Shown here: one piece after another, positions 7,274 through 23,902 of the stretch
How the letters are laid out: every line of letters starts with the position of its first letter
How positions within the stretch are numbered: position 1 is the stretch's first letter
DNA from: Janibacter anophelis NBRC 107843
Lineage (GTDB): Bacteria > Actinomycetota > Actinomycetes > Actinomycetales > Dermatophilaceae
Direction: 5' to 3'
DNA: 35,248 bases
NCBI RefSeq assembly: GCF_001570945.1
Contig: NZ_BCSQ01000037.1
Coordinates: 1-35,248 of the forward strand
Program-made: the position numbers and the translations under genes
Notes under the pieces: generated by a model
The model's database searches: none
Told to the model about the DNA's origin: nothing
The model's input: the letters and a program-made list of their open reading frames with translations, nothing else

Positions 7274-8089
7274 TCACGCACGGAGGCCGGCGAGGACCGG
7301 GGCGAGGGCGGACTCGAGGGCCGGCGCATGCGCCGGTCGGTCACTGAGGAGGCGGAAGAGCGCCGCACGCAGCATGGCCTGGCGCGGGGCCCCCTTCGTC
7401 CACTCCGTCATGACGGCGGGGTCCGCGTCGAGGTCCGTGACCCCGTCGAGCACGCAGGTCGCCTCCGCCCACAGGGCGGGTCGCCAGTACGGCGCCACGT
7501 CGATGACGACGGGCGCGCCGTCGGGGTCGAGCAGGACATTGCCCGCGAGGTCGCCGTGCACGAGCTGCGCCGGACCGAGCGGCGTGGCGTCCAGCCCAGC
7601 AGCCAGTCGGTCCGCGAGGTGACGCACGTCCGGGGCAAGACGCTCGGGGAGGCCTGACTCGCCGAAGGCGATGCGCTCGGCGACCGCCCACCGACCGGTC
7701 GGTGGCTGCGCAGCCGGCGGCCACGAGCGCACGGCGCGAGCCAGCTCGGCGTGCAGGACGGCGCCCACGGCCCGGACCGCGGTGAGGTCGGTCAGACGCC
7801 GCGTGCCGGGCTCGTAGCGCGTGGCGGCCCACCCGTCGACGACCCAGTTGCCGTCCCGGGCCGGCACGGGCATGGCGATGCGCAGGTCGCGGCGGTCGCG
7901 ACCGCGGCGGGTGTCGAGGTCGGCCGCCAGCCGCGCCAGGTGCGGGTTGAGCCGGCTCTGGGTCGCTTCGTCCCGCCCGGGGGAGAGGACGAGGTCACCG
8001 GCTCGCACGCTGTGGCCCTGCCCGCCGGGCAGCGGCTCGAGGTCCCCGGGCACTGCGAACATGTCCAGCACGTGCTCGCTCGGTCGCAT
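7274..8089 (-). CDS. Aminoglycoside-phosphotransferase-fold protein (TIGR02569-like)
   Basis: A 271-residue protein with the kinase-like APH fold. The catalytic loop reads LVHGDLAGNVLLDPDG (Brenner-type HGDL plus Asn, near residue 175), followed by VVIDVAPYWRPALWA where ordinary APH enzymes have an IDW/IDF metal-binding Asp. The HGDLAGNVL plus PYWRP combination recalls the actinobacterial TIGR02569 family from memory. The substrate is unknown and drug resistance should not be assumed. The start ATG 8089 is chosen because TACCGT lies six bases upstream on the same strand; the longer open frame overlaps the divergent DNA glycosylase gene. Confidence 0.75.
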   Translation of the reverse strand: MRPSEHVLDMFAVPGDLEPLPGGQGHSVRAGDLVLSPGRDEATQSRLNPHLARLAADLDTRRGRDRRDLRIAMPVPARDGNWVVDGWAATRYEPGTRRLTDLTAVRAVGAVLHAELARAVRSWPPAAQPPTGRWAVAERIAFGESGLPERLAPDVRHLADRLAAGLDATPLGPAQLVHGDLAGNVLLDPDGAPVVIDVAPYWRPALWAEATCVLDGVTDLDADPAVMTEWTKGAPRQAMLRAALFRLLSDRPAHAPALESALAPVLAGLRA

Positions 8090-8095
8090 GCCGTC

Positions 8096-8101
8096 ACGGT
8101 A
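8096..8101 (-). promoter_or_regulatory. -10 box of phosphotransferase-fold gene (leaderless type)
   Basis: TACCGT on the minus strand is six bases before ATG 8089. The geometry matches the other leaderless starts in this window. Confidence 0.5.
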
Positions 8102-8118
8102 GGGGACCGGGCGCCGGG

Positions 8119-8124
8119 CACAAT
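8119..8124 (+). promoter_or_regulatory. Possible -10 box of DNA glycosylase gene
   Basis: CACAAT precedes GTG 8132 by seven bases. A GGAGG at 8126-8130 lies only one base from the GTG, too close to serve as a normal ribosome-binding site, so a leaderless start is favoured. Confidence 0.35.
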
Positions 8125-8131
8125 CGGAGGC

Positions 8132-9058
8132 GTGACGACGCACACCGGTGCCGCGACCCTGCGCCACCGCCCTCCGGATCCGGTCGACCTTGACCTCGTG
8201 CTGCCCGCCTTCGTCCGCGGGTCGGGGGACCCGACGAGCCACGTGGGCCGCGACGGGTGGTGGTTCGCCTGGACGACCCCGCAGGGCCCGGTGACCCTCC
8301 ACCTCCAGGACGAAGGGGGCGAGGTCGTCGCCTCCGCCTGGGGAGACGGCGCGGCGTGGATGCTCGGGCGGGTCCCGGACCTCGTCGGAGGACGGGACGA
8401 CCCCAGCGGCTTCGTCCCCCACCACGACCTCGTGGCGCGCGGCTGGCCGCGGATGTCGCGGTGGCGCGTGCCTGCCAACGGGCTCGTCGCGCAGATGCTC
8501 GTCTGCTCCGTGCTGGAGCAGCGGGTGACCGGCAAGGAGGCCTTCTCCAGCCAGCGGCAGCTCGTGCGGCGGTTCGGCAGCCCGGCTCCGGGGCCGGGGG
8601 AGGAGCTGCGCCTCGTCTGCCCGCCGAGCGCTGCGGAGTGGGCGCGCATCCCCTCGTGGGCCTGGCTGCGCGCGGGTGTGGACGGCGCCCGCTCGCGGGT
8701 GGTCGTGCGAGCCATGCAGGTCGCCGGACGCCTCGACGAGTGCGCCGACCTGCCCCTGGACCGGGCGCACGCCCGGCTGCGCTCGCTGCCCGGCGTGGGG
8801 GAGTGGACCGCCGCCGAGGTCGCCCAGCGAGCGCTCGGCGATGCCGACTCACCGAGCTTCGGCGACTACCACGTGGCCAAGGACGTCACCCTCGCCCTGG
8901 ACGGGCAGGTGGGCGACGACGCGCGGATGGCGAAGCTGCTCCAGCCGTATGCGGGGCAGCGCTACCGGGCGCAGCGGATCGTCACGGCCACGGCCGGTCA
9001 CCGGCCGCGGCGCGGCCCCCGCCGGTCCCTGCCCACGCACCTGCCGACGCGCTTCTGA
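8132..9058 (+). CDS. AlkA-like DNA-3-methyladenine glycosylase
   Basis: A 308-residue protein of the HhH-GPD base-excision superfamily. The helix-hairpin-helix reads LRSLPGVGEWTAAEVAQRAL near residue 215, and the following GDYHVAKDV (about 243-251) carries the Asp equivalent to the catalytic Asp of AlkA. An upstream VAQMLVCSVLEQRVTGKEA helix is the usual 'QQV/EQRVT' substrate-pocket segment. It should remove alkylated bases from DNA. The N-terminal roughly 90 residues are the AlkA-like beta domain. GTG 8132 was chosen because the longer frame runs into the divergent gene. The very basic C-terminus (RPRRGPRRS) is likely a DNA-contacting tail. A 19-bp duplication covers its stop codon. Confidence 0.83.
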   Translation: MTTHTGAATLRHRPPDPVDLDLVLPAFVRGSGDPTSHVGRDGWWFAWTTPQGPVTLHLQDEGGEVVASAWGDGAAWMLGRVPDLVGGRDDPSGFVPHHDLVARGWPRMSRWRVPANGLVAQMLVCSVLEQRVTGKEAFSSQRQLVRRFGSPAPGPGEELRLVCPPSAAEWARIPSWAWLRAGVDGARSRVVVRAMQVAGRLDECADLPLDRAHARLRSLPGVGEWTAAEVAQRALGDADSPSFGDYHVAKDVTLALDGQVGDDARMAKLLQPYAGQRYRAQRIVTATAGHRPRRGPRRSLPTHLPTRF

Positions 9059-9086
9059 CCCGGGCTCGCGCGTCTGACCCGGGCTC
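9049..9086 (+). repeat. 19-bp tandem duplication across a stop codon
   Basis: Two 19-base units (9049-9067 and 9068-9086) differ by one base (GCGCTTCTGACCCGGGCTC versus GCGCGTCTGACCCGGGCTC). The first contains the TGA of the DNA glycosylase gene and the second holds a second TGA. Confidence 0.8.
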
Positions 9087-9091
9087 CCTGA

Positions 9092-9217
9092 ACCAAGACG
9101 TCGCATCTCCCCGGGGAAATGCACTCTCTCGACATCAGAACTGTGGATTTCCCCGGGCAAATGCAACCTCTCGACATCAAGACTGTGCATTTCCCCGGGG
9201 AAATGCACAGGACGGGG
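9092..9217. repeat. Three 42-bp tandem repeats, each centred on a palindrome
   Basis: Three units start at 9092, 9134 and 9176 with an exact 42-bp period. The CCCC|GGG centres fall at 9112/9113, 9154/9155 and 9196/9197. The last unit contains a 28-bp perfect palindrome at 9183-9210 whose half is CTGTGCATTTCCCC; the other two are imperfect copies. The linker between centres conserves CTCTCGACATCA. The array fills the gap between the convergent DNA glycosylase and cofD-like genes. Because 42 is divisible by three and no stops occur, several frames on both strands read through as 14-residue peptide repeats (HFPGEMHSLDV-type), which I regard as by-products. There are no variable spacers, so this is not a CRISPR array, and there is no T-run for a classic terminator. 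Confidence 0.9.
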
Positions 9218-9223
9218 GCGGGG

Positions 9224-10123
9224 TCAGGGGCGGAGGGACTCGGCGAGGGCGAGGGCGTCGCCGGCGACCTCGTCGGCCGGGCGGGCGAGGTCGACCTGCC
9301 GCGTGGTCCAGCGAGCCGCGCCGCTCGCGGGTGCGTCGTCGGTGCCGGTGAGCCACCCGTCGAGCAGGTCGCGGTAGAGGCCGGCGACGGCTGCGGAGGT
9401 CGGCTCGGCGCCGACCGCCGCCAGCGACGGCGCGAGGAAGGTCAGGTCCGGGCAGACGCCGACGACGGGGGCGGAGGTGCCGCGCAGGGCGTCCCGCACC
9501 CCGGGCACGCCGAGGACGATGCCGACCGACAGGACCGGGGCGAGCAGGACCAGGTCCGCCTCCCGCAGGGCGTCGAGGACGCCCGGGGCGGCCACGGCCC
9601 GGTCCATGCCGGCGACGACGAAGCGGGTGGCCGGGGGCGCGCCGAGCTCGTGGCGCCACTGCTGGACGTGCACCGCCTGCTGCTCGTGCTCACCGTCGAG
9701 GACGGCATGCGTCTCGACGGGCACGTCGCTCATCGGCAGCAGCCGAACTCCGCGCCCCGGCAGGCCCCGGCGCTCGGCCAGGCGCGTGGTCACCTCGCTG
9801 AGAGTGGCCCCCTGCCCGAGCCACGCGGTGCGCGCCAGGTGGGTGGCGACCTCGCCGTCGGTCACCGGGTACCACTGCGGGTGGACGTCGAGGGCGGCGA
9901 GCTCGCCCGCGACCGCGGACGTGGCACTCACCGGGTCGTCGGAGAGCTCGGCCAGCAGGCCGTCGATGTCGGGGCAGGCCCGCAGCCCCCAGAGGGAGAG
10001 GTCGTCGCCGGTGTTGGCGATGACCGTCAGCTCCGCGGGGACGGAGGCACGGGGGAGCCGGTCGACGAGTCCACGGACGAAGCGGGCTCCCGCCGGGCTG
10101 CCGGAGATCACGGTGATGCGCAT
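9224..10123 (-). CDS. Divergent CofD/FbiA family protein (F420 biosynthesis-type transferase)
   Basis: A 299-residue homologue of CofD/FbiA, which moves a phosphoenolpyruvate- or lactate-derived moiety onto FO in coenzyme F420 synthesis. Family features include MRITVISGSPAGARFVRGL at the N-terminus, NTGDDLSLWGLRACPDID (from 37), GATLSEVTTRLAERRG, RLLPMSDVPVETHAVL, and VGAEPTSAAVAGLYRDLLDG near the end. Two normally conserved pieces look eroded. The GGVGGA-type loop reads GSPAGA. The SNPxxSIxPI loop is shortened to LAPVLSVGIVLG, and the SPIxGG segment is replaced by VCPDLTF. It sits beside whiB as fbiA does in mycobacteria, but no fbiB/cofE is adjacent. ATG 10123 was preferred over GTG 10129 because family members start MRITV. 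Activity on FO is uncertain. Confidence 0.75.
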   Translation of the reverse strand: MRITVISGSPAGARFVRGLVDRLPRASVPAELTVIANTGDDLSLWGLRACPDIDGLLAELSDDPVSATSAVAGELAALDVHPQWYPVTDGEVATHLARTAWLGQGATLSEVTTRLAERRGLPGRGVRLLPMSDVPVETHAVLDGEHEQQAVHVQQWRHELGAPPATRFVVAGMDRAVAAPGVLDALREADLVLLAPVLSVGIVLGVPGVRDALRGTSAPVVGVCPDLTFLAPSLAAVGAEPTSAAVAGLYRDLLDGWLTGTDDAPASGAARWTTRQVDLARPADEVAGDALALAESLRP

Positions 10124-10196
10124 GCGCACATCGTCGCAGCAGGCTCGTCCCGGGCCACATCCGGACTACCGTTCACCGCTCCATAGCCTGCTCCGC

Positions 10197-23174: not shown

Positions 23175-23504
23175 TCACTCGTCCGGGCGGGAGGGCAGGA
23201 CCTTCAGGCCGATGACGGCGGCGACGATGCCGGTGAGGAGCAGGGCCTTGGCGGGGGAGAAGGTCTCGTCACCCGTGGCCATCGCCCAGATGACGGTCAG
23301 GGCGGCACCGACCCCGGTCCACACCGCGTAACCGGTGCCGATGGGGATGGTGCGCACGGCGTGGCCCAGTCCGCCCATGCTCAGGGCGAGGGCGACGACG
23401 AAGACACAGGTCGCGAGCGGGGCGCTGAACCCGTCGGACCGGCCGAGCGCGGTGGCCCAGACGGCCTCGAGGACGGCGCTGACGAGCAGGACCACCCACG
23501 GCAT
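23175..23504 (-). CDS. SMR family exporter subunit, second gene of pair
   Basis: A 109-residue four-helix membrane protein of the small multidrug resistance family. The membrane Glu13 in LLVSAVLEAVWATALG is the proton/substrate-coupling residue. IPIGTGYAVWTGVGAALTVI matches the SugE/Gdx subgroup more than EmrE. It begins one base after the stop of the other SMR gene, so the two form a heterodimeric pair. The upstream guanidine-III riboswitch implies guanidinium, or related compounds, as substrate; this is an inference from regulation. The C-terminal PSRPDE is hydrophilic, so the topology may be opposite to that of its partner. Confidence 0.9.
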   Translation of the reverse strand: MPWVVLLVSAVLEAVWATALGRSDGFSAPLATCVFVVALALSMGGLGHAVRTIPIGTGYAVWTGVGAALTVIWAMATGDETFSPAKALLLTGIVAAVIGLKVLPSRPDE

Positions 23505-23505
23505 C

Positions 23506-23820
23506 TCAGGCCACCACCTTCAGGCCGGCGACGCAGGCGACGAGCAGGACGACCAGACCCAGGCGGGCCGGGGAGGCGACCTCGTCCCCCTTCGCCATGG
23601 ACCAGACGACGGTGAGGCTGGCGCCGATCCCGACCCACACGGCGTAGGCGGTGCCCGTCGGCAGGCCGGTCATGGCCCACGCCAGCCCGAGCATGCTCAG
23701 GACGAGGGCGACGGCGAAGAGGACGGTGGGGCCGCGGCGGGTGAAACCACGGGAGGCGGACAGGGCGCCCGCCCAGACGGCCTCGAGCATCCCCGAGACG
23801 ATGAGCACGAACCAGGACAT
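23506..23820 (-). CDS. SMR family exporter subunit, SugE/Gdx-like, first gene of pair
   Basis: A 104-residue four-helix SMR protein. MSWFVLIVSGMLEAVWAGAL with Glu13, then GFTRRGP, LSMLGLAWAMTGLPTGTAYA and VWVGIGASLTVVW, closely resembles E. coli SugE/Gdx, a guanidinium exporter. It is the riboswitch-proximal gene of a pair. ATG 23820 follows GAGGGAG, which sits in a hairpin (23823-23840) and so can be masked. The longer open frame upstream reads through the riboswitch and is not coding. In mycobacteria the sahH-mtrA interval carries tmk instead (from memory), so this operon looks like a lineage-specific insertion. Confidence 0.92.
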   Translation of the reverse strand: MSWFVLIVSGMLEAVWAGALSASRGFTRRGPTVLFAVALVLSMLGLAWAMTGLPTGTAYAVWVGIGASLTVVWSMAKGDEVASPARLGLVVLLVACVAGLKVVA

Positions 23821-23822
23821 CA

Positions 23823-23876
23823 GGACTCCCTCGTGAGTCCGTCTTGTCGTGGTGCGGGTACGGCTCCCTCGTCCGC
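23823..23876 (-). promoter_or_regulatory. Guanidine-III (ykkC-III) riboswitch
   Basis: Read on the minus strand, the leader contains CGGACGAGGGAGCCGTACCC, then six bases, then GACAAGACGGAC (aptamer about 23876-23837). These match the conserved blocks of the guanidine-III riboswitch as I remember them (GGACGAGG, GCCGUACCC, GACAAGACGG), in the correct order and spacing. The CCGT and ACGG blocks can form the class's pseudoknot. The last GGAC of the aptamer also starts a 6-bp hairpin GGACTC/GAGTCC (23840-23823) that buries the GAGGGAG ribosome-binding site. Guanidine binding would hold the GGAC strand and expose the site, an ON switch. The downstream SMR exporters are the expected regulon. Confidence 0.88.
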
Positions 23877-23902
23877 AGGCCCGGTCGTGGGCCTCGTGGA
23901 CC

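Follow-up and report, generated by a model that had tools for sequence, protein, structure and literature searches.

The gap between two converging genes of Janibacter anophelis NBRC 107843 holds three palindromes at a regular distance from each other, and the question that this locus raises is whether they are an array of sites for a dimeric protein, a REP-like mobile palindrome, a bidirectional terminator or a structured RNA, all of which were put forward in an original prediction. The question reaches beyond this gap: decades after REP-like palindromes were first described, there is no agreement on their function. The window examined here is the whole stretch of 35,248 nucleotides (contig NZ_BCSQ01000037.1, positions 1 to 35,248). 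We find that its array belongs to a REP-like family whose palindromic sites are dispersed over the whole genome.

The palindrome array and its gap

Recomputation confirmed the predicted three palindromes with their centres, the 42-bp period and the perfect 28-bp dyad of the third (Table 1). Each palindrome is a 20-bp dyad, successive centres lie exactly 42 bp apart, and Tandem Repeats Finder describes the array as 2.5 copies of a 42-bp period. The linkers are conserved, as had been claimed, and have the word CTCTCGACATCA in common. The palindrome pattern matched the window three times at no more than three mismatches, against no match in 100 dinucleotide shuffles. On each strand the array also folds better than its shuffles (z -5.8 and -8.2), as would be expected of any palindromic array.

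Table 1. Coordinates of the palindrome array and of the neighbouring genes in the window.
Feature	Position	Strand	Description
Convergent intergenic gap holding the array	9059..9223	.	165 bp, from the stop at 9058 to the stop at 9224
Palindrome 1	9103..9122	.	GCATCTCCCCGGGGAAATGC; centre 9112/9113; 1 mispair; among the 106 genome copies
Linker 1	9123..9144	.	22 nt, GACATC centre; outer letters of palindrome 1 T+5, C+6, G+9 (sequence reading)
Palindrome 2	9145..9164	.	GGATTTCCCCGGGCAAATGC; centre 9154/9155; 2 mispairs
Linker 2	9165..9186	.	22 nt, 18/22 identical to linker 1
Palindrome 3	9187..9206	.	GCATTTCCCCGGGGAAATGC; centre 9196/9197; perfect; dyad perfect over 28 bp (9183-9210)
Left convergent gene	7751..9058	+	AlkA-like DNA glycosylase (weak); start uncertain; outside the element
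Right convergent gene	9224..10129	-	CofD family (PF01933, E=2.1e-32); outside the element

The gap was said to be convergent and to adjoin a DNA glycosylase gene. The first part holds; the glycosylase label rests on a weak match of the searched stretch (8102-9055) to NF007641 (E=0.0036), under the cut-off of that model, and the same stretch had no match in Pfam or in the PDB. A near-identical tandem duplication of 19 bp crosses the stop codon of this gene (9048-9086). No Rfam family matched at the palindromes above its gathering score, and a terminator consensus scan of positions 8700-9600 returned no terminator-like site. The sole Rfam match of the window is a Guanidine-III riboswitch (44.5 bits; 23832-23897, minus strand), and the two small genes immediately downstream of it (23506-23820 and 23175-23504) by eye resemble SMR-type exporters. 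A plasmid or phage origin of the array was rejected, since a search with 201 bases against 72,556 plasmid and 50,697 phage records, sets that may omit records very near the window, found nothing at E 1e-5.

A dispersed family in part of the genus Janibacter

With up to three mismatches allowed, the assembly from which the window comes (the own genome; 3.31 Mb in 124 contigs) contains 106 copies of the A-type palindrome TGCATTTSCCCGGGSAAATGCA, and the reversed control has none. A lack of further copies or a loss of the spacing was to count against the original prediction; both the copies and the spacing are present, and the search of the genome and its relatives uncovered a dispersed family, represented in congeners by palindromes with the same architecture and a different core. 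At up to two mismatches the A-type was found in two of 149 genomes of the bacterial family, 46 times in the own genome and once in a congener. The B-type pattern GCATTGCCSTAVGGCAATGC, also at up to two mismatches, is present in 10 of the 16 genomes of the genus, with no match in the controls: 144 copies in Janibacter sp. Soil728 (G101), 119 in J. indicus CGMCC 1.12511 (G152), 93 in J. terrae NBRC 107853 (G117), 35 in J. hoylei PVAS-1 (G151), 32 in the own genome, 27 in G144, 15 in G132, 6 in Candidatus J. merdipullorum (G153), 2 in G075 and 1 in G155. In the six genomes without it, CofD is 57-64% identical to the own protein, against 67-80% in the other nine congeners, which suggests that the palindrome carriers form one clade.

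A scan of 84,980 species gave at least 90 loci; among the matches listed, 82 lie in Janibacter and 8 in other organisms; inspection of the latter showed tandem repetition or imperfect dyads (2-4 mispairs each), which by eye stand outside the family. A doublet pattern was met in three of 396 genomes of the order, with 56 doublets in the own genome, one in another Janibacter and one unrelated match, likewise repetitive or imperfect (2-4 mispairs) and by eye no member of the Janibacter palindrome family. In the searches made, the family is thus confined to part of the genus Janibacter.

Within a sample of 1.56 Mb from the own genome (47% of it, window included), the detector picked up 113 palindromes, against 5 in the reversed control. 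Palindromes with shortened or lengthened cores escape it (6 in this sample, 0 in the reversed control), and the element counts are therefore slightly low. At about positions 1500-1660 of a G144 locus (L016), after a copy of GCATTCCCCCGGGGGAATGC, there are palindromes of like outline with other outer letters, for example CCCTAGGG centres and GCAAAA arms; the GCAT pattern applied here may thus not cover the whole family.

Location at gene ends

In this sample, in which genes were called with a crude self-trained ORF caller, the 113 palindromes form 63 clusters of one to four: 33 in convergent gaps, 19 in tandem gaps, 2 in divergent gaps and 9 inside called coding regions. Convergent gaps thus take 33 of the 54 intergenic clusters while making up 241 of 1453 gaps (16%; p=2e-13). 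The clusters hug the gene ends, 20 of the 33 convergent ones lying within 40 bp of both stops and 16 of the 19 tandem-gap ones no more than 63 bp from the stop of the gene upstream. Among the 8-kb congener loci, which were picked by the doublet pattern, convergent gaps are again the largest class for J. terrae, Soil728 and J. indicus (13, 15 and 15 clusters), but not for J. hoylei (2 of 10).

A CRISPR nature was rejected on the cluster sizes, 25 of the 63 clusters being single palindromes and the largest having four. The lead of an autoregulated operator was dropped as well: by eye, no regulator stands beside the two divergent-gap clusters, whose neighbours resemble a PfkB-type kinase and a MoxR-type ATPase in one case, and an OsmC-type protein and an NAD(P)H-reductase-type protein in the other. 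A further sequence, CCCCTTCG/CGAAGGGG, is enriched in the gaps of the own sample (247 of 1198 occurrences within 8.8% of the sequence) and was seen 3' of stop codons next to several arrays.

Two spacing classes

Neighbouring palindromes were sought at start-to-start distances between 26 and 56 bp. The 142 pairs obtained from five genomes (own 39, J. indicus 46, J. terrae 29, J. hoylei 17 and Soil728 11, the last set being just its CCNNGG-core part) comprise 62 at 29-32 bp, 78 at 41-46 bp and 2 at 54-55 bp; not one was spaced at 33-40 or 47-53 bp, and the reversed controls gave 0. Four further pairs outside this set have spacings of 45 bp (J. indicus), 30 bp (G075) and 31 and 31 bp (Candidatus J. 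merdipullorum). A search at 57-87 bp added 18 pairs (own 10, J. hoylei 5, J. terrae 3) with a third palindrome, or a sequence resembling one, between the two. When 156 pairs were grouped by their linkers at a loose 65% identity, 68 groups resulted, 24 at 29-32 bp, 43 at 40-46 bp and 1 at 55 bp; 67 of the 68 fall into the two length classes, and many different linkers thus share two lengths.

The class means are 10.3 bp (own genome, J. terrae) to 12 bp (Soil728) apart, so the two spacing classes differ by close to one helical turn. With two main classes only, the period is not precisely fixed, 10 to 12.5 bp fitting nearly equally, and a Rayleigh scan favours 11-12 bp over exactly 10.5 bp because of the tail at 43-46 bp. 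The original prediction took the 42-bp period as four turns that place all dyads on one face of the DNA. The 42-bp spacing is exact in the window array but not universal, a second class of 31-32 bp existing elsewhere in the family; the idea of phasing itself is supported by the two classes about one turn apart with their many linkers.

Double-stranded site or hairpin

If the palindromes were selected as RNA hairpins, serving as bidirectional terminators or as stabilisers of 3' ends, their halves should vary together. At positions 5-7 of 88 A-type copies, 154 of 264 positions are paired between the halves, against 153.3 +/- 7.0 after shuffling; the paired count equals random association, and the A-type half-sites thus vary independently. 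A pooled value for core positions 5-10 of the own genome suggests covariation (0.782 vs 0.682) and mixes A-type with B-type, for which reason the within-type test is preferred. Own copies in tandem gaps, read on the mRNA strand, do not favour G.U over A.C (19 vs 15, p=0.61); the ratio is 4 to 1 in J. hoylei, and neither kind occurs in the other three species. Runs of T after the palindrome are rare (2 of 198 sides in the own genome, 4 of 118 in Soil728, 0 of 216 in J. terrae, J. indicus and J. hoylei together).

The inner linkers are overall not self-complementary. Self-complementarity of at least 80% was found in none of 48 linkers of 22 nt and in one of 41 of 12 nt; inner pairing of the 48 distinct 22-nt linkers is 0.371 against 0.359 expected (P 0.32), and that of the 41 12-nt linkers lies under the null. 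A weak excess is seen in the 22-nt inner linkers of J. indicus (0.494 vs 0.405, P 0.026). The outer three linker letters, however, pair above chance when pooled with species mixed (0.583 vs 0.427) and in the 22-nt linkers of the own genome (0.778 vs 0.650, P 0.004). Flank positions -1 to -3 do so in Soil728 (0.690 vs 0.518 by chance) and slightly in the own A-type, and J. terrae shows an excess at positions -4 to -7 (0.432 vs 0.338, P 0.024).

The flanks also carry conserved letters. Of 233 distinct halves on neighbour-free sides, 102 have A at -5 (background 12%, p=5e-33), 110 have G at -6 and 154 have C at -9. The outer C is present in all five species. The outer GA occurs in the own genome, J. 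terrae and J. indicus; in Soil728 it is weak, and J. hoylei lacks it. These letters extend the unit to about 38 bp in the own genome, J. terrae and J. indicus, the own-species half-unit reading approximately C-N-N-G-A-N-N-N-Y-GCAT-Y-N-S-C with the dyad in the middle.

Given the lack of half-site covariation, the inner linkers that are not self-complementary, the rare T-runs and the G.U count, a selected hairpin is unlikely. The parts of the original prediction that saw a structured RNA or an intrinsic or bidirectional terminator as the selected feature are thus not supported by the A-type covariation, T-run and linker results, and with the empty terminator scan we rejected this candidate as the main selected feature.

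Orthologous gaps and species dialects

Presence and absence of arrays differ between Janibacter species. A CofD query recovered all 15 congeners, and a palindrome scan of their CofD loci found no GCAT-type palindrome. Thirteen congener gaps were read: the contig ends in G155, another gene comes first in G038, and the remaining 11 are orthologous glycosylase/CofD gaps without the element, so that the window array has no counterpart there. In G075, G132 and G144 (L021, L023 and L024) this gap contains a long inverted repeat of another kind, its arms reading GGTGGCCC...CGAAGCCGG; the glycosylase/CofD gap has thus been used again by another repeat.

Beyond the window, the gaps are shared more often: where the congener gap holds an element, so does the own gap in 18 of 38 cases, against 18 of 434 where the congener gap is empty. 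The rows are congener gaps, so that one own gap may count for several species, and two overlapping Soil728 samples count three filled gaps twice. Taken by sample, neither J. hoylei (p=0.07) nor the unbiased Soil728 sample (p=0.19) is significant alone. In 14 of the 17 shared pairs shown, the own gap has at least one CCCGGG-centred core and the congener a TA-centred one; both are B-type in the other three. At own gap C11 and its Soil728 counterpart, the distance from the conserved flank to the second palindrome agrees to within 1 bp, with the core CCCCGGGG in the own genome and CCATAGGG in Soil728; the spacing is 42 vs 31 bp, so that these orthologous arrays differ by one turn. At own gap C21, flank and linker are still alignable with those of J. 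terrae, and the core differs. One B-type array is common to own C1:148666 and G144, nearly unchanged, which suggests that the B-type is older.

Ten comparisons of an empty with a filled gap were made, and in the six readable ones no target duplication is evident. Those of C13 with L185, C19 with L236 and C20 with L176 align poorly, and own gap C3 (compared with L241) is not empty: it contains a palindrome with a shortened centre.

Transposase, direction and half-sites

A search for the Y1 transposase of RAYTs (PF01797) was negative in all 16 Janibacter genomes and positive in 5 of 14 control genomes, which rules against a RAYT-driven REPIN, within a search limited to the Y1 family. In three species one core pair is asymmetric, at position 9 in J. 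indicus (57 of 62, position 9 alone) and Soil728 (52 of 73) and at position 6 in J. terrae (32 of 39), and the palindrome there has a direction. Copying from a master would explain such a fixed pair. Of 94 pairs in these species, 76 can be oriented: 35 are inverted, 36 direct and 5 everted.

The main half-site GCATTTCCCC was seen 32 times in 0.82 Mb of own sequence (both strands), always inside palindromes, while GCATCTCCCC and GCATTGCC occur outside them 4 and 15 times, against 3.9 and 12.7 expected. Neisseria uptake signals form inverted pairs at gene ends, and the palindromic gene-end pairs and species dialects of Janibacter resemble such uptake sequences; an uptake role is nevertheless hardly conceivable, as the main half-site is never single and the others stand at about chance outside, and it was refuted in the form tested.

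Interpretation and alternatives

Our preferred reading, to which we give even chances, is that these REP-like elements are phased double-stranded binding arrays for a putative dimeric protein and act as boundaries at gene ends. Each palindrome would be a double-stranded DNA site for one candidate dimer. Neighbouring sites, three or four helical turns apart, would put the dimers on one face, where they may touch and stabilise each other; just 3' of stop codons, and mostly between convergent genes, the complexes could form a two-way barrier to RNA polymerase or to supercoiling. The dialects may track a changed specificity of the putative protein, or homogenisation by gene conversion. A phased dimer array is favoured by the spacing classes with their varied linkers, the independent half-sites and the conserved outer letters, and it is these statistics that speak for the dimeric-protein array of the original prediction, in which the binder itself is putative. 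The one-turn difference at C11 agrees with it too. Against it stand the asymmetric core pair, the pairing of the flanks, the outer GA that is weak in Soil728 and absent from J. hoylei, the loosely fixed period, and the fact that REPINs also combine a fixed spacing with variable spacers (PMC3116915). Rather unlikely, as a more far-reaching form, is a chromosome-wide boundary system of many phased arrays at gene 3' ends, in which a single lineage-specific dimeric protein would insulate convergent genes and its code would be rewritten in place in each species, the array positions often being kept.

The main rival to the binding array is a selfish REP/REPIN-like mobile family, spread as singlets and doublets by a putative non-RAYT enzyme or by gene conversion; the spacing would then be the length of the copied unit, and the location where insertion is harmless. 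We consider it unlikely, if well worth weighing. The largely fixed asymmetric pair in three species, the species-specific cores and the differences in presence between species all agree with it, as do the preferred inter-REP distances with variable spacers that are reported for REPINs (PMC3116915); the 35 inverted pairs may do so, REP dimers being described as mostly inverted (PMC3733652), next to 36 direct and 5 everted ones. However, no Y1 transposase is encoded in any of the 16 genomes, inner linkers are overall not self-complementary (the weak 22-nt excess of J. indicus apart), elements tend to recur at the same positions, the readable empty gaps give no sign of target duplication, and varied linkers of two lengths fit poorly with copies of a single unit. 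The RNA hairpin is improbable by comparison: the position 3' of stop codons in convergent gaps, some near-flank pairing and the folding of the window array agree with it, the last as for any palindrome array, but the missing A-type covariation, the G.U counts, the rare T-runs and the empty terminator scan do not, and it gives no reason for spacing steps of 10 bp. REPs and BIMEs have a known link to gyrase, and the Janibacter elements could be topological elements akin to the gyrase-binding BIMEs of E. coli, recruiting gyrase or a nucleoid protein at convergent positive supercoils. The 3'-end and convergent location suits this reading; gyrase, however, takes up a much longer stretch of DNA than a single 38-bp unit, and we hold the reading to be quite improbable. 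Several proteins are described as binding REPs and BIMEs, with a suggested role in chromosome organisation (PMC2817692). The topological reading is compatible with the phased protein array, from which it differs in the partner.

The absence of RAYT, the phased spacing, the independent half-sites and the dialects in orthologous gaps mean that this family can separate a role in double-stranded binding from that of a hairpin transposon, and the question becomes testable in culturable actinobacteria. If a binding protein exists, it would define a new kind of gene-end boundary; if it does not, Janibacter would have a REP family with an unexplained mode of spread.

Comparison with known systems

Palindromic operator arrays for dimeric proteins are well known, for example ParB/parS and LacI-type operators, and the Janibacter palindromes are like them in their dyads, independent half-sites and spacing near whole helical turns. 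They differ in standing at many gene 3' ends, and not at promoters or in one cluster near the origin. A literature search, with subscription papers mostly outside its reach, met no account of such repeats in Janibacter or of helically spaced REPs, and a large REP survey has at least three Actinomycetota in its table and does not mention Janibacter in its main text (PMC12306157).

REPs of the GTAG and CGTC super-families, from Proteobacteria and others, are described as palindromes of 20-40 bp in high copy, extragenic, at 3' ends and in convergent gaps, forming dimers and species-specific classes (PMC3733652), and differing REP classes are reported to adjoin orthologous RAYT genes (PMC3686654). 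The Janibacter family shares the high copy number, the extragenic 3'-end and convergent location, the dimers and the species classes. In contrast to REPs, its flanks have no GTAG or CGTC foot tag, as judged from position-wise composition in five species (the J. indicus palindrome has CTAC/GTAG in its centre, not at its foot), Y1 transposase is missing, direct pairs are as common as inverted ones, the spacing classes lie about a turn apart, the linkers are overall non-complementary and the A-type halves do not covary. RAYT-mobilised REPINs have a fixed spacing with variable spacers, taken as the length of the copied unit (PMC3116915). The preferred distances and variable spacers of the Janibacter doublets are reminiscent of them, and inverted pairs are common, if no more so than direct ones, whereas REPIN spacers fold with compensatory changes, which the Janibacter linkers overall do not, and none of the 16 Janibacter genomes has a Y1 transposase. 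BIMEs, described as mosaic clusters of regularly spaced palindromes (PMC2817692), are similar to the Janibacter clusters in the regular spacing; in the latter, however, the alternating orientation of BIMEs is seen in part and the linkers are many, in another phylum and with another sequence. The REP-like alternative of the original prediction was thus right as a description of kind, the elements being dispersed, extragenic and placed at 3' ends.
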